A stretch of DNA of 33,228 bases, from positions 1-33,228 of the IMG/VR virus record IMGVR_UViG_3300022539_000312; one strand, given 5' to 3'. The notes below the pieces were generated by a model, which was given only the letters and a program-made list of their open reading frames with translations, was not told the DNA's origin and did not search any database. Below, piece by piece: positions 10,832-33,228 of this stretch; positions within the stretch are counted from its first letter, which is position 1, and the number at the start of each line of letters is the position of its first letter. The position numbers and the translations under genes were made by a program. The stretch comes from a virus.

Positions 10832-10832
10832 T

Positions 10833-11707: not shown

Positions 11708-11731
11708 CGTTATAGGGATGGAGGTTAAATA

Positions 11732-11890
11732 ATGAGAACGAAAGAAGAGATACAAGAGAAGTTGTTGGCTGCATTACAGCAGAGTAAATCTAATAATTAT
11801 ACAGATGAAATTGCACTTAATAATGGTTTAATATTAAATGTGATAGCTGAGGTTTTAGTAGATATAAGAGAATTATTGATTAAGAAATAA
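11732..11890 (+). CDS. 52-residue helical hypothetical protein
   Basis: Good SD (GGAGGT) and ATG 11732. Amphipathic helical throughout (KEEIQEKLLAALQQSK ... LNVIAEVLVDIRELLIKK). This type of short helical protein is frequent in phage accessory regions. Function not known. Confidence 0.6.
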   Translation: MRTKEEIQEKLLAALQQSKSNNYTDEIALNNGLILNVIAEVLVDIRELLIKK

Positions 11891-11907
11891 ATAATATCAG
11901 AGGTGCT

Positions 11908-12470: not shown

Positions 12471-12473
12471 AGA

Positions 12474-13016: not shown

Positions 13017-13140
13017 GAAATATACAGTTTAGTCGAGAGGGTTAGGGTAAAGCGAAAACCTATTGGTTAAGGATTAAAATCAAGAGTTTATCAATGATGA
13101 TTATCTCAAGCAGAGCCAAAATGATCATTATAAATAATTA

Positions 13141-13186
13141 TAGCCAGATTTACTAAAAGAAAGATAAGCTCTAACTCTCTTGGCTA
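13141..13186 (+). ncRNA. Stem-loop in the 13017-13200 gap
   Basis: TAGCCA (13141-13146) pairs with TGGCTA (13181-13186) in the gap between the barrel gene and the 13201 gene. The remainder of the gap shows no gene. Its downstream edge carries the SD (AGGAG) for the next gene, so it is either a weak terminator for the barrel gene or a leader. Confidence 0.3.
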
Positions 13187-13200
13187 ATATTTAGGAGAAT

Positions 13201-13380
13201 ATGTGGTGTTTACATAGAATTAAAGAATCAAATGGATGGGTAGCGAAAAGGATTTTACGGCAATGTGTATATTATATGTCAGTAGTAAATGGTTTTTCAG
13301 TAGAAAAAGATGGTAGGATTATAATAGACTTCTTTAAAGCTGCTGATATATTTAGAGAAAAGCATAAACTATTTTTATAA
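13201..13380 (+). CDS. 59-residue hypothetical protein
   Basis: ATG 13201 with SD TAGGAG. A basic, slightly hydrophobic protein (MWCLHRIKESNGWVAKRIL...), ending in FFKAADIFREKHKLFL. It shows no motif that I recognise. It is flanked by folded leaders on both sides. Confidence 0.5.
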   Translation: MWCLHRIKESNGWVAKRILRQCVYYMSVVNGFSVEKDGRIIIDFFKAADIFREKHKLFL

Positions 13381-17549: not shown

Positions 17550-19547
17550 GTGACCATAATAACACCCACTAATCCATCAGCGTTAGCCGAATACCTGCGT
17601 GATAATATTTACGATAAATTACGCAAGGAACGGGAAGCGACAATTGAACCCAAGTGGCAAAAGAATATTGATGCGTTTAATGCGGTTGTTAACAGTGAAT
17701 ATTGGAAAGAGGGTGAAACTGAAGGCTGGCGGTCTGATACTTTTATAAAACTGACCAAACAAAAGATTGTAACTGCCTATTCAATGATAGTGGATATTAT
17801 TTTACAGGGTGGTAAAATTCCTTTTTCGTTACTTCCGAGTCCCTGGGATACAATGGTTTTTAAAGATTTACCCGAAGAACAGAAAAAAAGACTTGAAGAC
17901 GATATAGACGAAATGGAGGATTTAATTAATCAGCAGTTTCAGGATTGCAGTGCAGATAGAGAAATGATGAAGAATATAATGAGTGGTGCAATCTATGGTG
18001 AGACTATTGGTAAGAAGTATGTCCATGAAGTCATTAGAACAGGTTATAAGAAGATTTCACTTGCTCCACAGGGTTTACAAGACCAGCAGGGTCAATATGA
18101 CAGGTTTGAGGCTTTCAAAAAAACTAAGGATGCTCCGGCATACAGGCATATATCTAACTGGAATTTTTTCAGAGACCTTGAAACCAATGATTTGCAGACA
18201 GGATTAGCAGATATTGAAAGAGACCTTGTTTCACCGTTTTGGCTTAGAAAGAAAAAAGGTCAGCCATTCTGGATAGATGATGCAATTGATAGGGCGATTA
18301 AAAACGCCAGAAAGCCAGGGGATACGTCTTCTACAGGCTCTACAAGTGATACCAGTTCTTTGCCGCCGTTTTTAAGAACAATTACTAACAGACATAATAC
18401 AATAGAAAATCTTGAGTTCTGGACTAGAGTTCCAACAGAAATAGTCGAGCAGTTTGAAAAAGATTTAAAGAAAAAAGGTCACTTTACGACAGATATACAG
18501 CTTGAATATGACGGTAATGAAACAGAAATAATGGCTGTTATGAGTGATGCCGAAGTTACAAGATACGCAAAAGCTGAGGAAGGCAAGCGACCTTTTTACC
18601 GTGTTGAGTGGGAGATGAAACCCGATCATGCAGAGGGTATTGGAGTTGCAGACAATCTTGAAGATGTTCAAAAAGTTCTTAATGGTATGATTAGGGCTTT
18701 TGAGAATAACAAGAAATTATCCGCAAATGTCATGGGTGCTGGTAAAAGCAGACTTATGCCTGATTGGGATGGATCATTTAAGCCCGGACAATTTATTGAA
18801 GTAGCTGAAGAAGTTGATGATGCAAGGATGGCTTTTCAGCAGATTATAGTTGCAGATGTAGGGGAGACGTTACTTAGCGGAATTGCTTTATTTGAGAGAT
18901 ACGCTGATGAATCAAGTATGCTTCCAAAGTTACTTGCCGGTTCGGTTCTGGAAAAGCAAAAGCCCGACACGCTTGGCGAACTTCATATGCTTCAGCAAAA
19001 CTCAGGCAAGTATCTTGGGTCTGTGATTAAAAACTTTGATGAAGGCATAATCGAACCTGTAGTTACCGATTTTTACCATTATATTATGGATGATCCTGAA
19101 GTTGAGAAAGGTAAGGGGAATTTCATAGCAAAGGCATTAGGTTTTACAAGTTTTCAGGATAAAATAATCAGAGTCCAGAAAATAATGCAGGCTATTAATC
19201 TTGCTTTATCGGATGATAGATTAGCACAGGAAGTTAAGTTCAGGGATTTACTTGAGGAAATTTATAAAGCACTTGATTTAGAACCATCACAGATTTTAAA
19301 GACTCCAGATGAAAAACAACAGGAACAAGAACAGCAGTTACAGATGATAGCAATGCAGGAGGCAAAAGCAAAACGAATGCGAGATGATGCTCTTATGGTA
19401 GAAGAAGAACAAAAAGATACCGACTTAGACAGAGAAATAGACAAAGAAGATGCAAAACATGAAAATGCTTTAGAGATGGAAGATGTTGAGTTTGAACATG
19501 AGGTGGCTTTGAAGACCGTACCAACACCGAAAACAGAAAGTAAATGA
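17550..19547 (+). CDS. Portal protein
   Basis: 665 residues, GTG start after an AGGA SD. Long portal features: an N-terminal helical domain with WKEGETEGWRSDTFIKLTKQKI, a central beta-rich wing (PAYRHISNWNFFRDLETND, YRVEWEMKPDHAEGIGVADNLEDVQKVLN) and a C-terminal helical stem. The tail is very Gln/Glu-rich and charged (from about residue 585), resembling the extended helical barrel found in podovirus portals. Located between terL and capsid genes, as expected. It forms the dodecameric DNA entry and exit vertex. Assigned by motif pattern and location. Confidence 0.8.
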   Translation: MTIITPTNPSALAEYLRDNIYDKLRKEREATIEPKWQKNIDAFNAVVNSEYWKEGETEGWRSDTFIKLTKQKIVTAYSMIVDIILQGGKIPFSLLPSPWDTMVFKDLPEEQKKRLEDDIDEMEDLINQQFQDCSADREMMKNIMSGAIYGETIGKKYVHEVIRTGYKKISLAPQGLQDQQGQYDRFEAFKKTKDAPAYRHISNWNFFRDLETNDLQTGLADIERDLVSPFWLRKKKGQPFWIDDAIDRAIKNARKPGDTSSTGSTSDTSSLPPFLRTITNRHNTIENLEFWTRVPTEIVEQFEKDLKKKGHFTTDIQLEYDGNETEIMAVMSDAEVTRYAKAEEGKRPFYRVEWEMKPDHAEGIGVADNLEDVQKVLNGMIRAFENNKKLSANVMGAGKSRLMPDWDGSFKPGQFIEVAEEVDDARMAFQQIIVADVGETLLSGIALFERYADESSMLPKLLAGSVLEKQKPDTLGELHMLQQNSGKYLGSVIKNFDEGIIEPVVTDFYHYIMDDPEVEKGKGNFIAKALGFTSFQDKIIRVQKIMQAINLALSDDRLAQEVKFRDLLEEIYKALDLEPSQILKTPDEKQQEQEQQLQMIAMQEAKAKRMRDDALMVEEEQKDTDLDREIDKEDAKHENALEMEDVEFEHEVALKTVPTPKTESK

Positions 19548-19807
19548 ATATAATTAAATACTTAAAAACTTCAGGCGAGATTTTAAACTTAAAGGATGCT
19601 CATCATATCGGAGCATCAAAGGCTTTATTAAATGCAGTAGAGATTAAGCGTGAAGAATTAAGAAAGAAAAAACCAATGCGATGTGATGAAGATTTAAAGA
19701 AAGACTTAGTTTTTATATTAGGGCAAATAAATATGGCAAATTGGCTCTTAGACCTTCCCAGAAAGGCAGGAGAGTATTACCAAAAAACAGAAGGGAGAGA
19801 GCTATGA
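19544..19807 (+). CDS. 87-residue helical hypothetical protein
   Basis: ATGA overlap with the portal gene, and its stop overlaps the next gene's start. Helical with basic patches (EIKREELRKKKPMRCDEDLKK). Small helical proteins directly after a portal can be head-completion or assembly factors. Unknown. Confidence 0.6.
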   Translation: MNIIKYLKTSGEILNLKDAHHIGASKALLNAVEIKREELRKKKPMRCDEDLKKDLVFILGQINMANWLLDLPRKAGEYYQKTEGREL

Positions 19808-21450
19808 AAAAGATTTTTTACGGATTGTTTGGGATGCTGCTTGTCGGTTTATTTATGACAAGTTCGGCTCAAGCATGGTTGACAGATTCTAATGATATGC
19901 TTTGGAATGGGGAGCATAGGTTTCAGCAGAAAGTAGAGACTAAGAGAGATATGGATATAGGTGATGCTTCCAATGATAGTCTTACCATTAGTGCAAGCAT
20001 TGATGGTACGGTCTTTTTAAATGACAACAGTGGGGCTGCACCAAATCTTATATTTCAAGATGGAACAGACGAAAAAATAACAATAACCAAAGTTGATGCT
20101 TCACATCTGACGATTACTACATCTGACGGAACTACATCGGTACAGATACTCACAGGTAATTTGAGGGTGGGTAATAGTACCGGCGAAGATGTATCTATGG
20201 ACGGAGAGGATACTTACCTTGAGGGTACATTAGAAGTTGATGGCAATACAAGATTAGATGGTGATACTGATATCGGTGATGATTCTTCAGACTCACTTAC
20301 TATTAGTGCCAGCGTTGATGCCACTCTTTTTATGAATGATGATAGTGGTGCAACACCAGCAATAATCTTTCAGGACGGAACTGATGAAAGGGTAACGATT
20401 CTTAAAGTTGATACCTCACATTTAACAGTTACCACGCCAGACGCATCAACTGCGTTACAAATACTTACAGGAAACTTTAGAGTAGGTGATGGTACTCCTG
20501 ATACAGCTTCAATGGACGGAGAGGATGCTTATGTTGATGGTGAACTTGAGGTTGATGGTGCAGTTAGGTTAGACGGTGCTATAGACGCAAATAGTACAAT
20601 GAGTATATCTGGAACATTTACCGCTACTGGCAATGCTGACATTGGTGACGATTCATCTGATACACTTACTATTGCTTCAAGTATTGATGGTGATGTTTAC
20701 ATAAACGATAATAGCGGAGCTTCACCGAATCTTATCTTTCAGGATGCTACTGATGAAAGAGTGCTTATTGCTAAAGTCGATACCTCACACTTAACGATTA
20801 CTTTACCAGATGGGACAACTTCATTGCAGGTGCTTACTGGTAATTTAAGAGTAGGAAACGGTACTGGTGAAGATGTATCTATGGATGCGGAAGATGCTTA
20901 TATCGAGGGTACGCTTGAAGTTGACGGAACGGTTCGATTTGATGGTGTTGTTACAGTTACTAAAGAAGGCAATATATCATTTCCGTTGATAGGAACATTT
21001 GTAGATACCAATAGTAATACTGGGTTAATTAGCGAAAGTACAGATCCGACTTTAGCAATAAATGATGGAAAAGCTAAGTTGGTTTGGACTGATGCTGCCG
21101 AGCTAACCAAACGACAGGTAACATTTCATGTGCCGGATGACTATGCTTCCGGTGGTGTATATGAATTAATGTGTACTCGTTCTGGTGCTCTTGATCCGCC
21201 AAGCGTTGATTTTGAGCAGCTTATTGAAATTGCTGGTTCTGCAATAGCTTCTTCACCTGATCCTGAAACAGCAGTTGAACTTGATCCTGCTTATTACACG
21301 AGTCCTCAGCAAGTAACACTTACACCTGCACTTCAGACGTATGCTGCGGGCATGAGAGTTACATTTAATTATTGGAGAGACGATACGGATACAAGCACAG
21401 ACAGTTTGGAAGTAAGCAATGCTATCTGGACGTACACAAAAGGTCTCTAA
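19804..21450 (+). CDS. Secreted fibre-like repeat protein with Sec signal peptide
   Basis: Start ATG 19804 (MKKIFYGLFGMLLVG...) follows GGGAGAG and overlaps the previous stop by ATGA; the longer upstream start is inside that gene. Residues 1-24 form a signal peptide ending SAQA. Three tandem repeats begin at about residues 51, 156 and 279, each opening DIGD-(A/D)-S-(N/S)-D-(S/T)-LTI and containing LIFQD-(G/A)-TDE, LTGN(L/F)RVG and LEVDG. The C-terminal 160 residues form a separate domain. Repeats of this type occur in phage fibre and structural proteins. The signal peptide is very unusual for a virion protein of a tailed phage. Confidence 0.7.
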   Translation: MKKIFYGLFGMLLVGLFMTSSAQAWLTDSNDMLWNGEHRFQQKVETKRDMDIGDASNDSLTISASIDGTVFLNDNSGAAPNLIFQDGTDEKITITKVDASHLTITTSDGTTSVQILTGNLRVGNSTGEDVSMDGEDTYLEGTLEVDGNTRLDGDTDIGDDSSDSLTISASVDATLFMNDDSGATPAIIFQDGTDERVTILKVDTSHLTVTTPDASTALQILTGNFRVGDGTPDTASMDGEDAYVDGELEVDGAVRLDGAIDANSTMSISGTFTATGNADIGDDSSDTLTIASSIDGDVYINDNSGASPNLIFQDATDERVLIAKVDTSHLTITLPDGTTSLQVLTGNLRVGNGTGEDVSMDAEDAYIEGTLEVDGTVRFDGVVTVTKEGNISFPLIGTFVDTNSNTGLISESTDPTLAINDGKAKLVWTDAAELTKRQVTFHVPDDYASGGVYELMCTRSGALDPPSVDFEQLIEIAGSAIASSPDPETAVELDPAYYTSPQQVTLTPALQTYAAGMRVTFNYWRDDTDTSTDSLEVSNAIWTYTKGL

Positions 21451-22537
21451 TGCACTTTCAATACTGCTTATTTTTGCGGTATTGGGTACGCCATTATTAA
21501 CCATAACCGATGTTCGATTGTCGGGGCAAGTAATGTTTGAAGTAATAATTGTTCTTGCCCTGGCAATCGGTATCGCTAAGATAAATTTGTGGTGCGGGCT
21601 GTTTTTAATATTAGCCTTTGGTTCAGCCTTGCATCCGTTTAATACTGAAGATTCCATTTTTGCTTTCAGGTACGTATTTTTTGGAATATTATGGTATTCA
21701 GTATTAGTTTTAACAGTAAAAGATGTAAAATGGCTATTGCATGGAATAAGGATTATTTGTTTTGTTAATATATTCTGGCTTGGGTTACAGTTTTTTGGTT
21801 TAGACCCATTAACAGTCCCGACAAAATTATGGGAAGAAACAACATTAAGAGTTGGTTTATTAGCAAATCAAAATGAAGTTAGCGCTTTGATAGCATTTTG
21901 CAGTCCGGCGTTTTTAATAGGTCGATGGAAATATTTTTTATCCATAGTCTTATTGGGATTGGCTTTGACAATGACAATTGGCGGAACACTATCGTTTTTT
22001 ATAGGTATGGCGTTCTATGTTATTGTAACAAATCCATTATCAAGATTCTGTACAAAGAGTGAGTTAACAATAATTTTATTTATGTGTTTTATATCAATGA
22101 GTTTCTTTTATTGTGTTTTTATAAGTAGTCCGACTTTTAAAAGAATGGAAGCATGGACTAAAGGGATAGAATTTTATAAAACTCGTTGGATTTTTGGTTA
22201 CGGAATAGGTCATTGGAAACAAGTCTTTGGCATGGCTTATCAGCATAAAGTAATAGATTCGTGGTGGGTATATGCTCATAATGAGTTTGTTCAAGGTCTG
22301 TTGGAAATGGGGATAGGATTTGCTGTTATAATTACAGGATATCTTACTAATATATTTAGAAGATTTACAAAAGAAACAGTTATACCGATAACTGCGATAG
22401 TTATTATTATTGCAAATTGTGTGGTTAATTTCCCATTCCATATAGCCCAGACAGCCATAGTTGCAATTACATGGATGGCTATTTTACAAATTGAGTTGGA
22501 GAAAACGTGGGTAAAAAGATTAGTAAAAAACCCATAG
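21419..22537 (+). CDS. O-antigen ligase/polymerase-like membrane protein, copy 1
   Basis: 372 residues, ten or more transmembrane segments. The large periplasmic loop and its exit carry the Wzy_C-family pattern GYGIGHW (about 260) and HNEFVQGLLEMGIG (about 290), the conserved H in the H-N-E/D-F motif. It would act on lipid-linked O-units, ligating or polymerising them, and so change the host surface. It overlaps the end of the repeat protein by 32 bases and has an SD-like GGAAG. It sits inside the virion operon, which is not where such genes are expected. Confidence 0.8.
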   Translation: MLSGRTQKVSNALSILLIFAVLGTPLLTITDVRLSGQVMFEVIIVLALAIGIAKINLWCGLFLILAFGSALHPFNTEDSIFAFRYVFFGILWYSVLVLTVKDVKWLLHGIRIICFVNIFWLGLQFFGLDPLTVPTKLWEETTLRVGLLANQNEVSALIAFCSPAFLIGRWKYFLSIVLLGLALTMTIGGTLSFFIGMAFYVIVTNPLSRFCTKSELTIILFMCFISMSFFYCVFISSPTFKRMEAWTKGIEFYKTRWIFGYGIGHWKQVFGMAYQHKVIDSWWVYAHNEFVQGLLEMGIGFAVIITGYLTNIFRRFTKETVIPITAIVIIIANCVVNFPFHIAQTAIVAITWMAILQIELEKTWVKRLVKNP

Positions 22538-23643
22538 TTGCTGAATATAGATTAGGAATTATTATAGCAATAATATTATTTTTAATGTCAGTATTACGAT
22601 TGCCTGCTGGGATAGGACAAAGCAGGGACATTATTAGAATTATTATAGAAACAGGTATTCTGTTAGCGTTAGGTTTTTTTGTTGTATATAAAGGTAATAA
22701 ATGGATAGGGTTTTTTGCTTTACTTGCAGTATTTTCGTTTTTTTATCCATTGGCTGATGAAAATGCTTTACTAACTCGTAATTCTGTTTTTTTTGGAATA
22801 GTCTGGTATATGATAATTGTTTTAGTATTTAATAAAAATACGGTTAAGTTTTTAATGTGGGCGATGTGCGGGATAGCTTTTGTTCATACTATATTTTTAA
22901 TTTATCAACATTTTGGGTTAGACCCATATGGAACATTTACTTTTGGATTTATGAAATCTACAATGTCTGGCAATCCAACAGGTTTAATGACAATGAGTAA
23001 CGAAGCTTCGGGTTTGCTTGCTATTACAGCGTCAGCGTTTCTTATTAACCGTTATTTAAGATGGGGACTTATAATCATAGCTATAGGTCTGTTTGTTACA
23101 AAGGATGCTGGTGGAATGATTGCAGTATATGTAGGCTTGGGTTTTTATCTGTTTTTTTCAGGACTTTCGTATCGGATAATAATTGGATGTATTATAGTAT
23201 CTTTATTGGCTGTTATTGAATATGTACAAAGATGTAAAATTCTTTCTATAATTGGAAGAGTAGATATTTGGAAAGTCGGTTGGGAATATTATAAAGAATA
23301 TTGGATATTAGGTTACGGGCTTGGACATTGGAAATTAGTAACCAAGCAGTTGCATGCTCATAATGACTTTTTTCAGGTGCTTTTTGAAATGGGAATCGGA
23401 GCATGGATTTTAATTGCAGGATATCTTACTAATATATTTAAAAGATTTACAAAAGAAGCTCTTATTTCAACAACAGCATTAATAGTAATATTAGTGCATA
23501 GTTGCTATTCATGGCTGTGGTGTATTGGGGTTACTGCAATTGTGCAGGTAACTTGGTTGGCAATTTTAGAAATACAATTAAGAGAGTGTTCACAACAAGT
23601 TAAAGTTAGAAAAAAAAGGAGAAAAAAATGCCAGAGGATGTAA
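22507..23643 (+). CDS. O-antigen ligase/polymerase-like membrane protein, copy 2
   Basis: 378 residues, GTG start with a GGAG SD in the end of copy 1. Same layout as copy 1: multiple transmembrane segments, FGLDP, GYGLGHWK, AHNDFFQVLFEMGIG, then GYLTNIF(K/R)RFTKE. The DNA around this last motif is nearly identical in the two genes, showing recent duplication or gene conversion. Elsewhere the sequences differ strongly. By eye the two genes are lower in GC than their neighbours. Two enzymes could act on different sugar units, or one as polymerase and the other as ligase. Confidence 0.8.
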   Translation: MGKKISKKPIVAEYRLGIIIAIILFLMSVLRLPAGIGQSRDIIRIIIETGILLALGFFVVYKGNKWIGFFALLAVFSFFYPLADENALLTRNSVFFGIVWYMIIVLVFNKNTVKFLMWAMCGIAFVHTIFLIYQHFGLDPYGTFTFGFMKSTMSGNPTGLMTMSNEASGLLAITASAFLINRYLRWGLIIIAIGLFVTKDAGGMIAVYVGLGFYLFFSGLSYRIIIGCIIVSLLAVIEYVQRCKILSIIGRVDIWKVGWEYYKEYWILGYGLGHWKLVTKQLHAHNDFFQVLFEMGIGAWILIAGYLTNIFKRFTKEALISTTALIVILVHSCYSWLWCIGVTAIVQVTWLAILEIQLRECSQQVKVRKKRRKKCQRM

Positions 23644-24623
23644 TAGAAGAAGAAATCTCAGAGCAAATCGAAGATAAGGAAGGCGAACCTGATTTTGATA
23701 CTTTTGTTTCTGACACAGAAGTAGCGGAAGAAGAAGAACCAGAAACAGATAAAAAAGTTGAAACAGATAAAAAGTCGGAAGAGTCTGAAAAAAAGGTAGA
23801 GGATGAGAAAAAACCGGAAGAAAAAAAGGAAGATGATAAAGAAGAGGAACCAGAAGAAGAACTTGAACCTGAAGACAAACTCGATCAGATAATAAAAGAA
23901 AGGGGTATTGAAGAAGAACTGCCCCCATCATCGGATGACCAACCTCCTTCATCCGATTCAAAGCAGGAGGGGTTAGAAGAACCGCCAAAAGGAACAACCT
24001 CTCCTGCATTAACAAAGGAAGTTATCGCAGACCACTTAAAATTGATTAATAATGATGAGCTTCCAGGTGAGGTTATAATCGGCAATGATACTATAAATCT
24101 TAAAGAATACGCTAAAGAATACCCAGAAGAATTTAATGCTACCAAGATTTTAAGTGCGACAATTGCCCAGAAAATGGTTGAAGACCTTATTGAAAAAGGT
24201 GTGGTTGTAACTCAGAAATCGGTTGATAGTTTTAGAGAAGATGCAACCAAAGCTATGAATAGTTTATATCAGGAAGTATCTGACCTTAAATTCTGGAACG
24301 AGGTTATGGAAGTCCATGCAGATGCAATTAAAATCAATAAAGATTCTGCATTTAAGGAAGTGTGGCTTGAGAAACAGTCAAAGGGTATTCAGGCTTTGGC
24401 AAAAGCCCTTCAAACACCAGCAGATGCGATAACTATTATTGACTTGTACAAAAAAGATATTGCAAAAGGGAATGTTGAGGAGTTTGACAAAAAGAAGAAA
24501 GATAAAAAGAAAAAGAGCGATGACTTGCATAAAGGCACTATAAAAAGCAAAACTATCGTTTCACAAACAGATGAAATTCAACCAGATGAAGATGAGAAGG
24601 CGTTTGATGAACATGCAAAGTAA
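23628..24623 (+). CDS. Acidic scaffold-like head assembly protein
   Basis: ATG 23628 with an AAGGAG SD inside the end of the second O-antigen gene. 331 residues. The first 130 are extremely acidic with Glu/Lys-rich low complexity (disordered). The middle is helical (ITKEVIADHLKLINN, EYAKEYPEEF, QKMVEDLIEKG) and the end has a poly-Lys stretch (DKKKKDKKKK). An acidic, helical protein just before the capsid gene is typical of phage scaffolding proteins. No protease motif is seen. Confidence 0.65.
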   Translation: MPEDVIEEEISEQIEDKEGEPDFDTFVSDTEVAEEEEPETDKKVETDKKSEESEKKVEDEKKPEEKKEDDKEEEPEEELEPEDKLDQIIKERGIEEELPPSSDDQPPSSDSKQEGLEEPPKGTTSPALTKEVIADHLKLINNDELPGEVIIGNDTINLKEYAKEYPEEFNATKILSATIAQKMVEDLIEKGVVVTQKSVDSFREDATKAMNSLYQEVSDLKFWNEVMEVHADAIKINKDSAFKEVWLEKQSKGIQALAKALQTPADAITIIDLYKKDIAKGNVEEFDKKKKDKKKKSDDLHKGTIKSKTIVSQTDEIQPDEDEKAFDEHAK

Positions 24624-24789
24624 TAACGAAATTAAACAGGCTGCATATATAAGGGGCAAGATTCAGGAAGGTCAATTCAGGTGCTTTTTCTGTAAAAAGA
24701 TGTTCTTTGTAGGGTACTTAGCATCTGGTTCAGAAGTAGAAGCAAAGTGTCCGAGATGCGGAGAGTTAAACACGTTTAGAGTAGTATAA
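24613..24789 (+). CDS. Com-like zinc-ribbon protein
   Basis: The start is placed at ATG 24613 (MQSNNEIKQ...); ATG 24607 is possible and both overlap the end of the scaffold gene. FRCFFCKKMFFVG, then VEAKCPRCGELN follows the pattern of Mu-like Com proteins (RCxxCxKLL ... I-K-C-P-R-C-x-x-x-N). Mu Com is a zinc RNA-binding protein that activates translation of mom by opening an inhibitory stem. Here the next gene is the major capsid, whose leader has a prominent stem around its SD. A translational control role is inferred. Confidence 0.6.
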   Translation: MQSNNEIKQAAYIRGKIQEGQFRCFFCKKMFFVGYLASGSEVEAKCPRCGELNTFRVV

Positions 24790-24821
24790 GTTTTTTATAA
24801 AATTTAGAGGCTCAACAGAAG

Positions 24822-24868
24822 CCCAATCGAGAGTGTAGAATTTTCTACGTACTTGATTGGGTTTTTTT
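24822..24868 (+). terminator. Strong intrinsic terminator-like hairpin before the capsid gene
   Basis: CCCAATCGAG (24822-24831) pairs with CTTGATTGGG (24852-24861; one G-T), and the inner GTAGA/TCTAC completes a long interrupted stem. T7 follows at 24862-24868. It is a textbook intrinsic terminator, placed 62 bases before the major capsid start. Capsid expression must rely on readthrough or a promoter downstream; TACAAT at 24874-24879 is a possible -10. Confidence 0.75.
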
Positions 24869-24884
24869 ATTAATACAATTCAGA

Positions 24885-24929
24885 AGTCCTTGAGACTCAT
24901 TTTAATCACTAGAAAAGGAGACAAGGACT
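24885..24929 (+). promoter_or_regulatory. 8-bp stem enclosing the capsid-gene SD
   Basis: AGTCCTTG (24885-24892) pairs perfectly with CAAGGACT (24922-24929), which ends on the base before ATG 24930. The 29-base loop contains the SD AAAAGGAG. The start codon thus sits at the foot of the stem, so folding could control ribosome binding. No Com-binding site is defined from sequence, but a Com-like gene lies just upstream. Confidence 0.6.
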
Positions 24930-25949
24930 ATGAGTAATAATTTTAATACCTACGGTGATATATCTCCAAGAACAGGAGGTATCGCCAAAGCAATGCTGCT
25001 TGAACGAGGTCAGCACCTTATGGTGGTGGAGCGTTTTGGGCAGGTTGACCCGCAACAGAGGAACAAAACTAAGACATCCAAATGGAGACGGTATTTGTCT
25101 CTTGCACGGGCAACAGCACCATTGGCAGAGGGCATTCCTCCAAAGGGGCAGAAATTAACTTATGTAGATATTTCAGCAACTTTGGAACAATTTGGTGACA
25201 CGATTGAACTCACTGATGTTATTCGAGATACACATGAAGATCCCGTTCTTCGTGAGTCGATGAAAATATTAGGTGAGCAGGCTGCCGAAACTATCGAGGA
25301 AATGAGAATTAACGTAATTAGGGCTGGCACGAATGTTTTTTACGCTAATAACGTAAGCACACGTGCAACAGTTGATTCACCTCCGTTAAGAGGCGATTTC
25401 AGGAGAATATATCGTTCCCTTAAAAATAACAAGGCAAGGGAAATTACTGAAATCGTAAGAGCTTCTGCAAAAATAAGCACACAGCCAGTAGAACCAGCTT
25501 ATTTTGCAATGGGTCATACAGACCTTAAAGCAGACATCAGGGCTATTTCTGGATTTATTCCGGTAGCGCAATATTCTGATAGTTCAAAAGCATTACCCGG
25601 TGAAATAGGGTCTGTTGAAGAGTTCAGGATTATCCTTACTCCGATGTTTGAGTCATGGGAAACATCAGGTGTAAGCGGAACAACCTATTTATCAGGCGGA
25701 GTTGAAGTAAGCTCAGAAGCACAATGCGATGTTTATCCGCTGATAATTGTTGCCAGAGATGCTTACGGTATCGTGCCATTGCAGGGTTTTGGTTCTATGA
25801 AGGTATCAGTTGTTAATCCAAAACCGACTGCTGGTGATATTCTCGGTCAGGTCGGTGGTGTTGGATGGATAACATATCAAGCAGCGGTAATTCTTAATCA
25901 GAACTGGCTTGCTAGGCTTGAGTGTGCAGCAACTGCTGATCCATCTTGA
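24930..25949 (+). CDS. Major capsid protein, N4-gp56 family
   Basis: 339 residues. The N-terminal half carries the N4-gp56 pattern: MLLERGQHLMVVERFGQ, a TSKWRRYLSLARATAPLAEG stretch, LTYVDISATLEQFGDTIELTDVI and the DPVLRESMKILGEQAAETIEEMR helix. The C-terminal part has HK97-fold elements and a Gly-rich end. It is the main shell protein, following the scaffold-like gene, with its own terminator-like and SD-enclosing structures upstream. This family occurs in many phages and does not by itself mean an N4-like virus. Confidence 0.85.
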   Translation: MSNNFNTYGDISPRTGGIAKAMLLERGQHLMVVERFGQVDPQQRNKTKTSKWRRYLSLARATAPLAEGIPPKGQKLTYVDISATLEQFGDTIELTDVIRDTHEDPVLRESMKILGEQAAETIEEMRINVIRAGTNVFYANNVSTRATVDSPPLRGDFRRIYRSLKNNKAREITEIVRASAKISTQPVEPAYFAMGHTDLKADIRAISGFIPVAQYSDSSKALPGEIGSVEEFRIILTPMFESWETSGVSGTTYLSGGVEVSSEAQCDVYPLIIVARDAYGIVPLQGFGSMKVSVVNPKPTAGDILGQVGGVGWITYQAAVILNQNWLARLECAATADPS

Positions 25950-26010
25950 GTAAGTAACTAATTTTATTAAAGAAAAATAAGTAACTAAATAGGAAAAGGA
26001 GAATTGTAAT

Positions 26011-26688
26011 ATGAAACCTACACAACTTATAAGCGGTACATTTAAACAGCAGAATGCCGCAATATATCTTGGGTTAGGATTTATGCCTGACTATTTCAGA
26101 CTGTACAATGCGTCTGATGGTGAAGACATGATTCTTGACTGGAACATTAACATGCGTGTGCTTGCTGCGATCGAAGGTTATGCACAGGTAGGCGATGATG
26201 ACGAAGCATTTGATGTTCATGATCTTGCCTTCGGTGAAGGTGCAGCTATTTACAGAGGCGGTGCTGCTATAGGTTCAGGCACAACGCCTTCGACAACTAC
26301 TTATCTTGCCAAAGAAGAGAATCCTGATAAGAGAGCTTCGGGTACTGGTGATGATATTGATACTTGGACATTACAGAACTCTTCAAACAGAACAGGTAAG
26401 TGGAATGCTGTTTGTAGTACTACCTATGTTGGTATCGGTTCAAGAATCTGTGTAGATGGTAAGTGGGCAACTGTTGTAGCTATATCTAGCAATGGTGCAG
26501 ATGATAACGAAGTAACCCTTAACGAAGCCTTAAAGTCAGGTACAATTCAGTATCTTACCAATATGTATGACTGGGTTGCACAGGCTTCAGGCACGATAAC
26601 AAAAGCCGGCATTATTATATCTGATACAACGTATCTTCTTGATGCTGCGACAGATATGATGGTTTTTGAAGCCGGAACTTATCGGTAA
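26011..26688 (+). CDS. Head accessory or decoration-like protein
   Basis: 225 residues, SD AAGGAG. The leader contains an 11-bp direct repeat (TAAGTAACTAA, 25951-25961 and 25978-25988). The protein is beta-rich with a first strand MKPTQLISGTFKQQNAAIYLGLGFMPDYFRLYN and a Thr/Ser-rich middle (GTTPSTTTYLA). A gene directly after the major capsid commonly codes for a decoration protein or minor head protein. Family not recognised; call by position. Confidence 0.5.
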   Translation: MKPTQLISGTFKQQNAAIYLGLGFMPDYFRLYNASDGEDMILDWNINMRVLAAIEGYAQVGDDDEAFDVHDLAFGEGAAIYRGGAAIGSGTTPSTTTYLAKEENPDKRASGTGDDIDTWTLQNSSNRTGKWNAVCSTTYVGIGSRICVDGKWATVVAISSNGADDNEVTLNEALKSGTIQYLTNMYDWVAQASGTITKAGIIISDTTYLLDAATDMMVFEAGTYR

Positions 26689-26733
26689 TTAACAATTGAG
26701 CTTCATGGAAGGCCAAACTACATAGGAGAAATT

Positions 26734-27261
26734 ATGGAAAGCCAAGAGTTTTCAAAAAACCAAGAGCCTATTATTCTAACTTCTGCTGATGAACCGTTTA
26801 AAACTAAACAGGCAGCAGTATTAACTATGAGTAATAAAAAACTTGTGGATTGTGAAGTAGTGTCTTTAGAAGGTGGTGGTTTCGGGATAAAAAAGAAACC
26901 TGTTCCAAAACCACCCAAAGAAAAATTCTATAGAGTAAAATTTAATGCAAAATCTTCTCCAAACGATACGGATGATGTGATTCTTTCTGTAAATGGTGCG
27001 ACACTAATTGCACAGAGAGAAAGAGAAATTGTGATTTCTGAGAGATACAAGGAAGATGCTGACCATGCGACATATCCTCAAACAAGGCAAATTCCTGGGA
27101 AAAATAGAAAGACAATATCATGGATTAAAACATATCCGTATGAAGTTATTGGGGAAGCAACTCAAGAAGAGTTTTTAGATGTTAAGAAAAAAGGCACGAA
27201 ACAAACCAAACGGAACATTCAGAAGTACGGGTATGATGTATCTCCAGAAGACCTAATTTAG
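26734..27261 (+). CDS. Putative virion structural protein
   Basis: 175 residues. Two Lys/Pro-rich linkers (KKKPVPKPPKEKFYRVK) separate small beta domains, and the end is basic (GTKQTKRNIQKYGYDVSPEDLI). Located between head protein and adaptor genes, so it may be a head-completion protein. Function not recognised. Confidence 0.5.
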   Translation: MESQEFSKNQEPIILTSADEPFKTKQAAVLTMSNKKLVDCEVVSLEGGGFGIKKKPVPKPPKEKFYRVKFNAKSSPNDTDDVILSVNGATLIAQREREIVISERYKEDADHATYPQTRQIPGKNRKTISWIKTYPYEVIGEATQEEFLDVKKKGTKQTKRNIQKYGYDVSPEDLI

Positions 27262-27270
27262 GGAGAAACT

Positions 27271-28137
27271 ATGTCAACTGATATATCTGATTGGGTTGAA
27301 AAAGTTGATATGCCTAACTGCCCGAATCCTATTATCGAGGGTATTGTCGTAGATATTCTCAGACGCTTTTGTGAATATACTAAGATTTGGGAAAAAAGAC
27401 TGTCGCCTATAAACATTGTTGTTGTCGAGGCTGCAACAGATATCGCTTTTGTTGCTTCTGATCCAGACACCATTACAAGTACATCAACAAGTTTTACATC
27501 CGCAGGTCTTGCGGCTGGCATGACAATAGTAACAGACCACGTTACATCCGAAGAAGATGAGAAAGATAATACAGGGCCATATCTGTTAGGTACGGTTGCC
27601 GCTCTATTATTAACTCTGGATTCTAATGAATCCGTAGTTGCTGATGATGCTGGCGATTCTATTTATATTAGTGTTCCCGAATACGAAATTTCTTCATCTG
27701 ACGGAGATATTATTAGTATAGCTAATGCAAAGTTTGACGGAAAAAAACTAATTCCAAAGACTGAAAACTGGCTTGATAGTAATGTTAGTAAGTGGCGAAC
27801 AGAAATGTCAACGCAACCTGTTTATTACTGCATGGGGCCGAGCAGGAAAATGTGGCTTGTCCGAGCGCCGCAGGAAGAAATCGAAAACGGTCTTGAAGTA
27901 TGGGTATATTTAAAACCTTTACTTACAGCGACAAGTGTTGAGGACTTTTTCTATGATGATTATGAAGAAGTTATTTCTGACGGAGCAAAGGCAAAATTAT
28001 ACAGCATGATAGGTAAACCCTGGGCAAATCTTGAATTATCTAATTATTTTGCTGCTCGTTACATAATTGGTCGCAATCAGGCATGGAATAAGAGTTTTAA
28101 GCGATACACAAGAGCAACTTTTGGAATAAGGGCGTGA
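27271..28137 (+). CDS. Head-tail connector/adaptor-like protein with inserted beta domain
   Basis: 288 residues. Residues 1-55 and 135-288 resemble a phage family ending in KLYSMIGKPWANLELSNYFAA (K-A-K-L/R-x-M-x-G-K-P-W-x-N-x-E-L), which is usually shorter. An insert at about 56-134 (TDIAFVASDPDTITSTSTSF ... DDAGDSIYIS) is a self-contained beta domain. The same domain type, opening with DPDTIT, occurs in the 945-residue protein encoded at 28755. A role in the head-tail junction is inferred from location. It ends two bases before the next gene. Confidence 0.6.
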   Translation: MSTDISDWVEKVDMPNCPNPIIEGIVVDILRRFCEYTKIWEKRLSPINIVVVEAATDIAFVASDPDTITSTSTSFTSAGLAAGMTIVTDHVTSEEDEKDNTGPYLLGTVAALLLTLDSNESVVADDAGDSIYISVPEYEISSSDGDIISIANAKFDGKKLIPKTENWLDSNVSKWRTEMSTQPVYYCMGPSRKMWLVRAPQEEIENGLEVWVYLKPLLTATSVEDFFYDDYEEVISDGAKAKLYSMIGKPWANLELSNYFAARYIIGRNQAWNKSFKRYTRATFGIRA

Positions 28138-28138
28138 T

Positions 28139-28789
28139 ATGAGTATAACCGCACAATCCGTAGTTGATGATGCTGAACTGATTTTAATGGATTCAGATAA
28201 TGACCATTGGACAGAAGCAGAGCTATTTGGATATCTAAAAGACGGAGAGAAAGAAACAGCAATTCATAAACCGGATATATATATAATCAATGATGATGTT
28301 GTTCTCGTTGAAGGAACAAGGCAATCCCTTCCTTCTGGCGCTATTCATTTAATTGATATTGTCAGGAATATGGGAACAAACGGTTCTACCATTGGAGATG
28401 TTATTACGCTAATTGATAAAAAGTCTTTTGATGCAATTGACAGGAGTTGGCATAAGGCTACAGCATCAGCAACGGTTGAACATTTTATGTTTGATTCGAG
28501 AGATCCTACACGTTTTTATGTGTACCCGCCACAGCCTTCGAGCAGTTTTGGTTATGTTGACATGATTTATGCCTCAATCCCGCCAACTATATCTGCAATA
28601 TCTTCAAATATTAATCTTGATGATATTTATAAACACGTTTTGGTTAATTATCTTCTTTACAGGGCATATTCTAAAGATGTGGATATTTCAGCAGATGGCG
28701 GTGCAAAAGCGACTTTTTATTATAAAATGTTTTTACAGGGGTTAGGAGTAAAAGATCAAAAAGAAGAGGCAGACGCTCCGAAGCGGTAA
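28139..28789 (+). CDS. Head-tail adaptor protein (DUF6682/T7 gp11-like)
   Basis: 216 residues. MSITAQSVVDDAELILMDSDNDHWTEAELFGYLKDGEKETAIHKPD is the typical start of the phage adaptor family (A-x-x-L-x-D-x-x-x-x-x-W-T-x-x-E-L-x-x-x-x-N/D-x-G). The end is helical (YKHVLVNYLLYRAYSKD). It would connect portal and tail. The gene's 3' end contains the putative SD and start codon of the following nozzle-like gene. Confidence 0.7.
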   Translation: MSITAQSVVDDAELILMDSDNDHWTEAELFGYLKDGEKETAIHKPDIYIINDDVVLVEGTRQSLPSGAIHLIDIVRNMGTNGSTIGDVITLIDKKSFDAIDRSWHKATASATVEHFMFDSRDPTRFYVYPPQPSSSFGYVDMIYASIPPTISAISSNINLDDIYKHVLVNYLLYRAYSKDVDISADGGAKATFYYKMFLQGLGVKDQKEEADAPKR

Positions 28790-31655
28790 ATTATTTATAT
28801 GTCTGATTTTTGCAGTATTGTTTTGTGTTAGCGCACATGCACAAGACAGACAAGCATACCAGTACGTCCAGTTTCCGTTTAACGGAGCATGGATGCCGGA
28901 TATCGACCCTGCTAATATCGGCCCGAATAATTTTAAAATATTACAGAATTTACGTTATAAAGATGACCGTTTAGAAGGTATTTCTGGATATACAAAAGTA
29001 AATACTACTGCTTTAACTACTTCTCTTAAAATTAGGAATGGTCATCAATTAAGAACAAATTACGATATAGATTCATATGTTATTGTCCAAGCCGAAAATG
29101 CTGGTCTAACTTCTTCGCAGGTATTACAAAATCAGACAGATATTGGAAGTCAGGGTGATTTTTCTCCAGATGTTTTACATACCGATGTTTCCGGTTCAGG
29201 ACTTGGTTTATTTACTACAGTAAGTAATGATGTAATATACTGCAACGGTAAAGAGGTAATTATCTGGGCAGGTAATGAACAGCGATGTTCGGCATTTTTT
29301 ACCTGTTCTGATTCAAGTCGTACCAATCCGATAGAATATACTGAAAGAGTTAATACCACCCTTGATGATTCTCCCAACAACATTGTTTTAATCGGTGCTA
29401 CTACAAGAAACTGGCTTGTATTTACTCCAAGACCAATTCAAGCGGTTAAATATACAGTAAAAACAGCCAATACCGCTACTTCAACTACAAGCGGTAAAGT
29501 TTGGAATGGTTCAAGTTTTGTATCAGTAGGTAATTTATCTGACAATACATCTTCCAGTGGTAAGTCTTTAGCTCAGTCCGGCACAATGACTTTCGACTCG
29601 ACTGTTGATACCGCAAAACCATTTCACTTTGAGAATCTTTATTTATATGCTTATCAGTTTGCGATTACTGACGGAAGTCCAGCAGTCAGTTTTGTTACGG
29701 TTAATGCTCCCTGGCAGGATATTGTTGATATATGGGATGGAGTTAAAAGACAGCCGATAGCATTTCAGATATATAGGGATTCAACCGGAACTTTTGAGGA
29801 TTATACGCTTCAGGTAAACGCTTCGTCTTATGAAGAACTTCCCATAGGTGGTATTCTTGATGGTTTAACTACGTCTGATTATATAGTTGTAATGTTTGAA
29901 GAACGTATGTCGGCGATTAATTATACGCTCTTGGGAACTCTTGTAAACCAGAATGCTGCAACAGCTACAATCTATTACAGACAAGGTGTTACATGGACAA
30001 CTGTTGGGACTGTTACTGATGGTACTGTGGCTAATAGTAAAGTATTCGGTCAAAGCGGTTTGGCGAGTTGGAATCCGCCATCCGAAACAGACGAAACTAA
30101 AACAGAATTATTCGGCAAAAAAGGTTATGCCTACAAAATAGTTTCAAGTGCGACTCTTTCCGGTTCAACTCCTAAATATATAAGAACCGATATAACTTTT
30201 AGCAAAACAAACGACCCGGATACTATTACTACGGCAGCAGGGAATTTTGTAACCGCTGGAGTTAAAGCCGGAGAATATATTGAAGTTGCAGGAACAGACA
30301 CAAACAACGGCGTATTTGCAGTAGTTAAGGTTACATCCACAGTTATTACTATTACCAACGATACTCTTGGAGCAGACGAGGCTTCTGGAGACACGGTAGT
30401 TTTTACTATTGATAGAGAACCAGAAATAGTTATTGACCTTGTAGCTGGCGTACCGTCACAGCAAACTATCAGAGCATATAAGTTTCCGTCATCTTATAGA
30501 AACAGACTTCTTTTATGCGGGGATACTGAAGGAAAAGAGGGAAACAGGGTTGATTATTCTGTATCTAATTCCCCCCAAATGCTTAACGGTGATGAATCAA
30601 GCAAGAATAAAGAACAGAGTTTATATTTTGGAAATTCCGATGATCTTACCTGTGGAACACAAATATATAACAGGTTCGGTTCTAATGTTATTGTTTCATG
30701 GCTTGGTCTGAAAAATAGCGAAACCTATTTATTAACCGGAGATGGGCCGGAAAATTTTAAAATACTTCCAGTATCGTTCACTGTCGGCTGTCCTGCACCA
30801 TTGACTTTAGATAATGCAGAAGTAGGATTTCAAATAGCAACAGATATTGAGAGAAATGTTGCTATCTGGTTATCTTATGCTGGCCCGATGATATTTGACG
30901 GAGCTGTACTAATTCCGATTCGTGGGATTGATAAATATTTTGACCCCAATGAAACAGACTGTATTAATTTTGATGCAATTGAAAATTCAAGAGGCTGGTT
31001 TGATGCTACCTATAAGGAATATAATTTATTAATTCCTTCCGGCGCAAGTCAGATAACTAATAATAAATGGTTTGTTTATGATCTTGTAAGAAAGAAATGG
31101 TACGAAAAATCAACAGGTTCAGCAGGACGTCCTCAATGCGCTTTCAGGGTTATAGATGAATATGGAACTCAATATATTTATGCCGGAATAGATTCTGGAT
31201 ATATGATGCAACTAGAAGACGGTACAAGCTGGAATGGAACAGGTATTACTCAAAAGGTTGTAACTGGCGATTTTTGGCCGACAGGCAGTATATGGGATAA
31301 AACCAGAGTCAGGCGAGTAAAGATTGTCGCAAAAAGAATAACCGAAGACCACGATTTAAAATTAAGTTATTATGCCGATACTAATATGTCAGAAGGCACA
31401 GATTTTGTATGGGCAGATACTTCGGCTTTTGTATGGACTGATACAGATGATTTTATATGGAGTTCTGCCGGTCTTGGCTCTTTAGAATTAAGTTTGGCTG
31501 AAGGAATGTACCGATTGGTAAGAACAACAGGAATATTAGATATATTAGGTTGGGCGCATGGTTTTGGATTTCAATTAACAACTGATGATTCGGCTAAAGG
31601 ATTCCAACCTATAGCATGGGGGATGGAATATTCTTTTGTAAGGAAGGATAGATAA
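28755..31655 (+). CDS. Nozzle/tail-hub-like protein with Sec signal peptide and probable AUC start
   Basis: About 966 residues from ATC 28755 (945 from TTG 28818). The mature N-terminus (QYVQFPFNGAWMPDIDPANI ... LQNLRYKDDRLEGI) matches podovirus tail-nozzle or stabilisation proteins, and the body is beta-rich. From the in-frame stop at 28749 to TTG 28818 there is no ATG or GTG. Yet the intervening codons give a perfect signal peptide (KKKRQTLRSGK, LFICLIFAVLFCV, SAHA). AGGAG (28744-28748) is six bases before ATC 28755. A DPDTIT beta domain lies at about nucleotides 30180-30420. The normal TTG start would yield a truncated signal peptide. Confidence 0.65.
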   Translation: MKKKRQTLRSGKLFICLIFAVLFCVSAHAQDRQAYQYVQFPFNGAWMPDIDPANIGPNNFKILQNLRYKDDRLEGISGYTKVNTTALTTSLKIRNGHQLRTNYDIDSYVIVQAENAGLTSSQVLQNQTDIGSQGDFSPDVLHTDVSGSGLGLFTTVSNDVIYCNGKEVIIWAGNEQRCSAFFTCSDSSRTNPIEYTERVNTTLDDSPNNIVLIGATTRNWLVFTPRPIQAVKYTVKTANTATSTTSGKVWNGSSFVSVGNLSDNTSSSGKSLAQSGTMTFDSTVDTAKPFHFENLYLYAYQFAITDGSPAVSFVTVNAPWQDIVDIWDGVKRQPIAFQIYRDSTGTFEDYTLQVNASSYEELPIGGILDGLTTSDYIVVMFEERMSAINYTLLGTLVNQNAATATIYYRQGVTWTTVGTVTDGTVANSKVFGQSGLASWNPPSETDETKTELFGKKGYAYKIVSSATLSGSTPKYIRTDITFSKTNDPDTITTAAGNFVTAGVKAGEYIEVAGTDTNNGVFAVVKVTSTVITITNDTLGADEASGDTVVFTIDREPEIVIDLVAGVPSQQTIRAYKFPSSYRNRLLLCGDTEGKEGNRVDYSVSNSPQMLNGDESSKNKEQSLYFGNSDDLTCGTQIYNRFGSNVIVSWLGLKNSETYLLTGDGPENFKILPVSFTVGCPAPLTLDNAEVGFQIATDIERNVAIWLSYAGPMIFDGAVLIPIRGIDKYFDPNETDCINFDAIENSRGWFDATYKEYNLLIPSGASQITNNKWFVYDLVRKKWYEKSTGSAGRPQCAFRVIDEYGTQYIYAGIDSGYMMQLEDGTSWNGTGITQKVVTGDFWPTGSIWDKTRVRRVKIVAKRITEDHDLKLSYYADTNMSEGTDFVWADTSAFVWTDTDDFIWSSAGLGSLELSLAEGMYRLVRTTGILDILGWAHGFGFQLTTDDSAKGFQPIAWGMEYSFVRKDR

Positions 31656-32716
31656 TGAAAAAATTATTATTATCGTTATTCATAACTTGTTTTATTTTTA
31701 TGGGCGGTATTGCTCATGCCACCGTAGAGTCTTACGGAGCATATGTCTTAACAGGTGGCACTTCTGGTTGTCTTGATGCCATAAACGGTTCGCTTTTAAG
31801 CGATGGTGATGTTTGCACGGTTAGAATATCGACAGGAACTTATTTTTATGTACTTGATTCTACTTCTGCCGCTACTGAAAGCTCACCGGATATTATTTCA
31901 CCCGACACAAATGCCGGAGATAAAAGGTGGTTATTAACAGAAGTAAAACCTGCTGCTTCAACTACGGTGGAAGGTACGATTGAAATATCTACCAACACAG
32001 AAGCAATAGCTGGTACTGCTACAGATAAGGCGCTTGTGCCAGACAATCTTGCTTACGTGCTTCAAGCTGGAACAATGACTTATGTGGCTGATGCTCAAGC
32101 TTCGGACACTTACGTAGCTACCTATGTCCCAGCGGTAGCAGCCTATGTAACAGGCATGGTAGTACATTTTTACGCTAAGACAGCTAATACAGGAGCATGT
32201 ACCTTAAATGTAAATGCTCTTGGTGCAATTGATATAAAAAAATTACATGACCAAGATCCTGCTACTGGAGATATCGAAGCTGGTCAAATACTAACAGTAG
32301 TATATGACGGTACTAATTTCCAGATGCAGAGTCAGATAGCAGCCACAATAATAACAGCCACAGAAGTAGTTCAGGCAGCTACAGACACACTTACTGCTGC
32401 GGAATGCTCAGGAACATTTATAAATAATTATGGTCAGGGGGCAGCGAACACGCAAACACTTCCTGCCGCAGCCGAAGGGCTTAATGGAATCGTTCATATT
32501 GCAACGGCTGGAGCAGGTGCATTTCATTTAAAGGCTAATACTGGCGATAAAATATATCTAAATGGAACAGCATTAACTGACGGAGACAAGGCTTCTATTG
32601 CAACTCCAGCGGTAGGTAATTCAATGACGTTTTGGGCATTTCAAACCGGAGCCGGTGCTTATGACTGGATGGTATCATCTGGTGTCGGAACAACAGTAAC
32701 AGACGGCGGTGCATAA
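31655..32716 (+). CDS. Tail fibre-like protein with Sec signal peptide
   Basis: 353 residues, ATG overlapping the previous stop (TAATG). Signal peptide MKKLLLSLFITCFIFMGGIAHA. After this comes a fibre-type repeat (TTVEGTIEISTNTEAIAGTATDKALVPDNLAYVL) of the kind found in lambda-type side-tail fibres. The C-terminal half is Thr/Ala/Gly-rich with beta strands. A receptor-binding role is inferred from the fibre repeat. Confidence 0.7.
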   Translation: MKKLLLSLFITCFIFMGGIAHATVESYGAYVLTGGTSGCLDAINGSLLSDGDVCTVRISTGTYFYVLDSTSAATESSPDIISPDTNAGDKRWLLTEVKPAASTTVEGTIEISTNTEAIAGTATDKALVPDNLAYVLQAGTMTYVADAQASDTYVATYVPAVAAYVTGMVVHFYAKTANTGACTLNVNALGAIDIKKLHDQDPATGDIEAGQILTVVYDGTNFQMQSQIAATIITATEVVQAATDTLTAAECSGTFINNYGQGAANTQTLPAAAEGLNGIVHIATAGAGAFHLKANTGDKIYLNGTALTDGDKASIATPAVGNSMTFWAFQTGAGAYDWMVSSGVGTTVTDGGA

Positions 32717-32719
32717 AAT

Positions 32720-33228
32720 ATGAAAAAAATATTATTAAGCATTCTGATTGTTTTTGTTATGGTTGGGACTGCCTATGCAATACTTAGACCAGCTATTTTA
32801 GGAACGGCTGGTGGAAAATTTTTAATAGCTTCAGGTGGAACTGAAACCACTGATGGTGATTACAAAATCCATACCTTTACTAGTACTGGAACACTAACAG
32901 TTTCAAACGGCGGTACGGTTACCTATCTTGTAGTTGCTGCCGGTGCTGGTGGAAAAAACGGAGCTGGTGGTGCTGGCGGATATAGAACAACCACTCTTGT
33001 AATAACGCCAGGTGCAAAAACAGTAACAATAGGTGCTGGCGGTGCGCCTGGTGCAGGGGGATCAAATTCTGTATTTGATTCTATCATATCAGTTGGTGGT
33101 GGTAATGGTGGTGCTGCTAATGTAAATGGAGTTGCTGGAGGTTCTGGTGGCGGAGGCGGTTATAATAAAACTGGCGGTTCAGCCACTCCTGCTGGACAGT
33201 GTGAAGCTGGTGGTGACGGTGGTGCTGG
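32720..33228 (+). CDS. Gly-rich fibre-like protein with signal peptide (cut by window end)
   Basis: ATG 32720 three bases after the previous stop, open to the window end. Signal peptide MKKILLSILIVFVMVGTAYA, then strands THTFTSTGTLTV-type (IHTFTSTGTLTVSNGG, VTYLVVAAGAGG) and a Gly-rich repeat region (GAGGAGGY, GGGNGGAAN, GGSGGGGGY). This is the Gly-rich tail-fibre or adhesin tip type. It is the fourth protein of the late operon with a signal peptide. Confidence 0.7.
   Translation, partial: MKKILLSILIVFVMVGTAYAILRPAILGTAGGKFLIASGGTETTDGDYKIHTFTSTGTLTVSNGGTVTYLVVAAGAGGKNGAGGAGGYRTTTLVITPGAKTVTIGAGGAPGAGGSNSVFDSIISVGGGNGGAANVNGVAGGSGGGGGYNKTGGSATPAGQCEAGGDGGA

Follow-up and report, generated by a model that had tools for sequence, protein, structure and literature searches.

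To our knowledge, all known tailed phages build both head and tail in the cytoplasm. Virion proteins with signal peptides (SPs) are familiar from the filamentous phages (Inoviridae), whose pVIII and pIII are exported by the Sec pathway. Unlike the virus considered here, however, these phages extrude a membrane-inserted coat without lysis and possess no head, terminase or portal. Lambda encodes Lom and Bor, which carry Sec or lipoprotein SPs as do the genes described below, and proteins of the Cor/Llp type have a role in exclusion, but all of these are proteins of the host envelope and not structural parts of a tail. The attachment proteins of enveloped animal viruses take the route through the endoplasmic reticulum and the secretory pathway while the capsid is inside; this is an analogy only, without kinship and with no envelope here. 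We analyzed a virus record from IMG/VR (IMGVR_UViG_3300022539_000312, 33,228 bases; "the window" denotes this whole stretch), in which predicted Sec SPs precede genes for tail fibres and, provided that an ATC codon serves as start, for the tail nozzle. In related contigs, designated by L numbers, such signals also precede the portal-tail adaptor, while head proteins bear none. This pattern points to separate compartments of the cell for the making of head and tail.

The locus is organized like that of podoviruses of the SU10/N4/GP4 type, with genes for portal, scaffold, capsid, connector, adaptor, nozzle and fibres following one another in this order, and the folds modelled for adaptor and nozzle agree with structures solved for their counterparts. 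An AlphaFold model of the adaptor family (predicted local distance difference test score, pLDDT, 88.5) matched the portal-tail adaptors of SU10 (template modelling score, TM, 0.74), GP4, KHP30, N4 and others, and the L007 adaptor was assigned to phrog_399 (E 2.2e-11). The AlphaFold2 (AF2) model of the window nozzle (pLDDT 82.1) matched the nozzles of cyanophage A4, SU10, T7 and P22; all top Foldseek matches were nozzles, with E-values down to 4e-20 and a TM of just about 0.4. The nozzle gene lies right after the adaptor gene in all contigs. By their modelled folds, the two families are the podoviral portal-tail adaptor and nozzle. What separates them from the short-tailed phages T7, N4, Y3, StenR_269 and Rollin, in which our SP heuristic called no tail gene, is that here the tail block is predicted to be made as Sec precursors. 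The genes concerned are the following (an arrow marks the cleavage site):

19804..21450, + strand: repeat-rich, beta-structure-like protein; SP 19804-19875, SAQA↓W, score 4.61.
27271..28137, + strand: connector immediately 5' of the adaptor (phrog_437, E 1e-25), without SP, at the position of the SP-less adaptor paralogue of the relatives.
28139..28789, + strand: portal-tail adaptor (phrog_399, E 1e-41), without SP here, with SP in at least 20 relatives.
28755..28841, + strand: putative Sec SP of the nozzle, score 5.55; needs an ATC start; SP-bearing nozzles of relatives share the A↓Q(E/D) junction.
28755..31655, + strand: tail nozzle protein, assigned by the AF2 model and the alignment of the nozzle family.
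31655..32716, + strand: tail fibre; SP 31655-31720, IAHA↓T, score 4.80, ahead of an 'LTGG..PDTNAGDKRW' module; tail phrogs 4900 and 910.
32720..33228 (cut), + strand: glycine-rich fibre protein; SP 32720-32779, AYA↓I, score 5.53; Pfam Gly_rich_2; phrog_2295; complete at L002:13966-14799.

The SPs were predicted with a rule-based heuristic that was written for this analysis and calibrated on Escherichia coli. It asks for a charged n-region, a hydrophobic core that is 9-12 residues long and free of charged and polar amide residues, and small residues at positions -3/-1; the cut is 4.0. In a control region of E. coli K-12, all Sec signal peptidase I proteins scored at least 4.07 and all false hits below 3.6, and lipoproteins were picked up as well, bar one at 3.46. 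Among 209 genes of T7, N4, lambda, Y3, StenR_269 and Rollin, eight were flagged, comprising signal-anchor-release endolysins, spanins, Lom, Bor, a small lipoprotein and an unnamed gene beside the endolysin in the lysis cassette. In T7, N4 and lambda, no virion protein (0 of 42) was called, which agrees with an earlier note on this DNA that export signals on virion-type proteins are unusual for tailed phages. The database entry of the lambda portal bears a 'sig_peptide' label, which we take to be the known N-terminal trimming of this protein and not Sec export; the heuristic gave no call on it.

The earlier note had described four Sec SPs in the window, and its coordinates and sequences for these segments proved correct. 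Each segment reveals a positively charged n-region, a hydrophobic core and an AxA-type cleavage site, in the nozzle only given the ATC start, and the scores were matched by at most 0.6% of shuffles of the same N-termini. The segments are predicted to be real, cleavable Sec SPs. Three of them are canonical and begin with ATG: 19804 with MKKIFYGLFGMLLVGLFMTSSAQA↓WLT and GGGAGAG upstream of the start, 31655 with MKKLLLSLFITCFIFMGGIAHA↓TVE and AAGGAAGG upstream, and 32720 with MKKILLSILIVFVMVGTAYA↓ILR, which starts 3 nt past the stop of the preceding gene. The latter gene is truncated at the window end; it is complete in L002/L004 (IMGVR_UViG_3300022538_000399, 38,921 bases), a record whose overlap with the window is identical and which extends beyond it. 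There, just beyond the window end, lies a fifth gene with an SP that the earlier note had overlooked (L002:14809-15240, phrog_7759, unknown function). The fourth segment, M(I)KKKRQTLRSGKLFICLIFAVLFCVSAHA↓QDR of the nozzle, is present as described and would act as an SP only with an ATC start, since no ATG, GTG or TTG stands ahead of the hydrophobic core: the frame opens after the TAA at 28749, and the first such codon, TTG 28818, lies within the core. ATC 28755 has a good AGGAG 6 nt upstream and appears to be the only sensible start for an SP-bearing nozzle in the window. A single frameshift error hiding an ATG was considered and rejected. If a single T is deleted from the run that follows ATG 28799, the product is MSDFAVLFCVSAHA; as this has no positive n-region, ATC 28755 stays the better start.

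Whether related phages share the signals, as the earlier note proposed to survey, received a divided answer. In the nearest relative, L003, whose nozzle is 77% identical to that of the window, adaptor, nozzle and fibre all lack an SP, whereas at least 20 other contigs carry SPs, and these on adaptor and nozzle besides the fibres. Among the distinct contigs of the nozzle alignment (A5, 40 contigs), adaptor and nozzle both bear an SP in 16 and neither does in 15; only the window is split, with its SP-less adaptor and its ATC-dependent nozzle signal (Fisher p = 6e-8, uncorrected for kinship). The 16 include the adaptors of L040 and L069, which score under the cut and were counted by eye; the SP state of L055 is borderline. 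A search with the adaptor added L077, L081, L082 and L086, each with SPs on both proteins, as well as L084, in which the adaptor N-terminus is SP-like and the following gene bears an SP, and L072, L078 and L079 with an SP on the adaptor. More distant adaptors had none (0 of 44). In the SP-positive contigs essentially the entire block of adaptor, inserted genes, nozzle and fibres bears SPs, including the genes inserted between adaptor and nozzle in L046 and L061, while the flanking genes for portal, capsid, scaffold and ejection proteins do not. In the SP-negative contigs SPs are almost absent from the genes of the strand, the exceptions being the 19804 homologue of L037, one small gene of L060 and the borderline case L055. 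One fibre (L038:13596-14420), directly after genes for a Sec-signal fibre, nozzle and adaptor, has in place of a Sec signal a Tat-like one, MLTRRKFIELTAIWGALLPASAQA↓SW (TRRKF...ASAQA↓SW), which would be another route to the same place. The fibre module that follows the SP at 31655 (LTGG..G.LDAIDG..PDTNAGDKRWIL) is common to fibre genes of 23 contigs; it is preceded by an SP in nine of them and by the start methionine alone in the other 14.

The signals of the tail block are gained and lost together. On the best nozzle tree the SP state changed at least seven times, and three changes are forced by starred (well-supported) branches. Two independent pairs could be drawn on starred branches, and the adaptor state paralleled that of the nozzle in nearly all pairings. 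Since such pairs are too few for significance, the association of adaptor and nozzle signals is strong in count and modestly tested against kinship. In L052 (IMGVR_UViG_2522572160_000002), which apparently stems from an isolate genome, as its identifier differs from those of the metagenome series, and where both proteins lack SPs, the nozzle gene looks broken by inserted open reading frames (ORFs; 8314-9381, 9394-10011 and 9986-13246).

The signals are placed directly at the mature domains. SP-bearing adaptors share the junction (A/V/C)xA↓(G/A/S)SQQ, which corresponds to MASQQ, the natural N-terminus of the SP-less adaptor of L003; the nozzle junction is often A↓QE or A↓QD. In 12 of 16 contigs, nozzle SP start and adaptor stop overlap by 1-8 nt, with an overlap of 4 nt in nine contigs, and eight of the 16 SP-bearing nozzles have no in-frame ATG or GTG from the cleavage site to the domain. 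The SP-positive genomes of 58-62 kb, which were searched for duplicates, contain no second, SP-less copy of adaptor or nozzle. They have a single nozzle gene, several listed matches being pieces of one frame, and one adaptor, or two in L059, both with SPs. In SP-positive contigs the adaptor has an SP-less paralogue encoded just 5' of it (84.5% probability and E 7e-6 in a comparison of profiles). Hence, the head in the cytoplasm could retain a first ring, and a second one would belong to the exported tail. The mature adaptor and nozzle contain 5.6 cysteines per 1000 residues in SP-positive and 9.6 in SP-negative contigs (p = 0.0008, uncorrected for kinship); for the head-side proteins the values are 10.2 and 11.8 (p = 0.91, with crude ORF calling).

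On balance, we lean towards the view that Sec takes the tail parts to the periplasm, where they mature, and that they are joined to heads at lysis. Export as such is well supported; that it and cleavage occur in vivo, the compartment of assembly and the joining at lysis are what we infer from these patterns. The parts would be made as precursors, cross the inner membrane and be cut by signal peptidase. The exported set would comprise the fibres and perhaps the nozzle in the window, and adaptor, nozzle and fibres in at least 20 relatives; these proteins would fold and probably pre-assemble in the periplasm. Head, portal, the SP-less adaptor paralogue and the ejection proteins would remain in the cytoplasm, where the DNA is packaged, and packaged heads would wait there until lysis proteins open the inner membrane and the two halves meet. 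More broadly, it is nearly an even question, tilted slightly to the negative, whether there is a two-compartment lineage in which DNA-filled heads with portal are cytoplasmic, full short tails are formed in the periplasm from Sec- or Tat-exported parts, the halves join at lysis or across the membrane, and the trait switches as a block in evolution. The window phage is then, as read from its genes, a mixed or transitional member with exported fibres, a non-exported adaptor and an uncertain nozzle. Wholly cytoplasmic assembly implies structural proteins without export signals, and this group is predicted to have such signals.

Several points weigh against this view. The whole case is based on sequence, and some calls are weak, namely the adaptors of L040 and L069 and the nozzles of L064 and L081/L082, which have hydrophobic N-termini without a good cleavage site. 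As the adaptor of the window has no SP, fibres and perhaps the nozzle would be exported there without it; similarly, in the scanned stretches of L010, L022 and L024 the fibres bear SPs while no SP-bearing adaptor or nozzle was called. Two of the three SPs on the head side (L060:7395 and L064:7186) violate the simple rule. The cysteine contrast lacks a correction for kinship, and the difference between tail and head values reaches only p = 0.07. Since adaptor and hub close the DNA-filled head in P22-type phages, the heads considered here would need another seal. Proteins with SP-like N-termini encoded between capsid and connector were observed in two contigs with SP-negative tails (L060:7395-7961 and L014:1822-2454); the former has the motif VLCRS in common with SP-less genes at the same position in L059 and L065.

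While nozzle and fibre genes are of the virion type, as the earlier note had assumed for all four, 19804 is probably an exported accessory outside the tail block. Its homologue L037:1126-1899 (31-33% identity in the repeats, E 2e-12) keeps the SP and precedes a Wzy_C gene, though the tail block of L037 is SP-negative. In both contigs, a gene for a repeat protein with an SP and, after it, one or two genes for Wzy_C membrane proteins stand amid virion genes (window 19804-23643 and L037:1126-2959), between portal and scaffold in the window and after the capsid gene in L037. This arrangement is a possible surface-modification or exclusion cassette. Exclusion proteins of the known class are small, exported and separate from virion structure; adaptor and nozzle are single-copy structural genes, and 19804 alone could belong to this class. 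Perhaps it acts at the cell surface, and superinfection exclusion is a fair hypothesis for this protein. Further features of the window are:

17550..19547, + strand: portal or head-tail connector (phrog_332, E 3.9e-26), without SP.
21419..22537, + strand: polytopic Wzy_C (O-antigen ligase/polymerase superfamily) membrane protein 1; PF04932 E 2.8e-4, 21.2 bits, under the curated cut-off; 10 transmembrane windows.
22507..23643, + strand: polytopic Wzy_C membrane protein 2; PF04932 36.6 bits, above the curated cut-off of 31.7; 28% identical to L037:1823-2956.
24930..25949, + strand: major capsid protein of the N4-gp56 type (phrog_1357, E 5.8e-57), without SP.

The capsid protein is 41% identical to that of Pseudoalteromonas phage vB_Pun_Y3 and 53% to that of L063. 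Upstream of the terminase, the window encodes an OmpA-like outer-membrane beta-barrel (12474-13016; OMP_b-brl E 1e-16), whose Sec SP is clear (VPAMA↓EDT) and which is adjoined by a small lipoprotein gene (12225-12470; LIFFCG↓C). A 300-nt direct repeat (5584-5883 and 6457-6756; 99% identical, spacing 873) yields two near-identical ORFs of 87 amino acids (5694-5957 and 6567-6830).

A role of the exported fibres in superinfection exclusion or as decoys, by which they and 19804 with its Wzy-like neighbours would mask or alter the receptor in the envelope while virions use a non-exported fraction, would account for the fibre SPs in the window, L010, L022 and L024, where the adaptor has none. It also fits 19804 and its L037 homologue, which have their SPs irrespective of the tail state and lie beside genes for Wzy_C membrane proteins, as well as the OmpA-like protein and the lipoprotein. 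However, it leaves the SPs of adaptor and nozzle unexplained, as free forms of these proteins do not touch receptors and no cytoplasmic copy was found in the genomes of 58-62 kb, and the inserted genes of the tail block bear SPs too; we thus consider this explanation unlikely. The earlier note had offered receptor blocking and delivery of free fibres as possible purposes, and neither explains an exported adaptor and nozzle without a second copy in the cytoplasm. Its third suggestion, assembly at an unusual envelope, comes nearest to the observed pattern of tail-block SPs, and assembly at such a place would be in keeping with it. It is conceivable, if improbable, that export serves modification before the proteins join the virion, be it periplasmic glycosylation by a Wzy_C-family O-oligosaccharyltransferase of the operon, disulfide formation or folding by chaperones. 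The virion operon of the window contains two Wzy_C genes and the SP-positive L063 one, and glycosyltransferase and epimerase genes lie beside the virion genes of the SP-positive L065. On the other hand, the same Wzy_C gene is present in L037, whose tail is SP-negative, and none is seen in most SP-positive stretches. Glycosylation was rejected as a general reason, for the Wzy_C genes do not track the SP state, and disulfide formation because SP-positive tails are depleted of cysteines and not enriched.

The segments could also be uncleaved hydrophobic N-termini of virion proteins, which contact or anchor to the membrane at infection, or signals of a dual start with a mainly cytoplasmic product. 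The ATC start and the internal TTG of the window nozzle are compatible with this, as are an in-frame start near the cleavage site of some nozzles and the long hydrophobic N-termini without a clear cleavage site in the nozzles of L064 and L081/L082. Yet the n-h-c architecture and the AxA sites are retained despite sequence divergence, half of the SP-bearing nozzles have no alternative ATG or GTG, one fibre (L038:13596) exchanged the Sec for a Tat-like signal, and known nozzles and adaptors lack such segments, all of which makes this reading quite improbable. That the signals arose by chance or by an artefact of prediction, for which solely the heuristic nature of the predictor speaks, is hardly credible in view of the shuffled N-termini, the clean controls and the repeated joint occurrence in more than 20 contigs.

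Export of tail parts for assembly in the periplasm thus remains the reading that we prefer. A tblastn search of 50,697 phage records with three nozzles and one adaptor revealed no cultured relative for the nozzles and two weak matches of 21-22% identity for the adaptor. Neither nozzle nor fibre module was found in genome contigs, and the fibre module, the only query used there, was not found in plasmids. A search of open-access full texts brought up no account of tailed phages whose adaptor, nozzle or fibre proteins bear SPs; the passages checked dealt with endolysins, methods or negative results. The parts are of a known podoviral tail kind; the export signals on them are new, and two-compartment assembly, if demonstrated, would be a new principle. 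If true, tail assembly can move to another compartment of the cell, and it would do so in a widespread group whose tail-block signals are gained and lost as a unit. It may then be asked by what means a head without a tail retains its DNA, what links the two halves, and whether tail proteins are kept from toxic or premature interactions by assembling in the periplasm. As a simple genomic mark, SPs on adaptor and nozzle may serve to find more cases, and for annotation they are a warning that an SP does not exclude a role in the virion.

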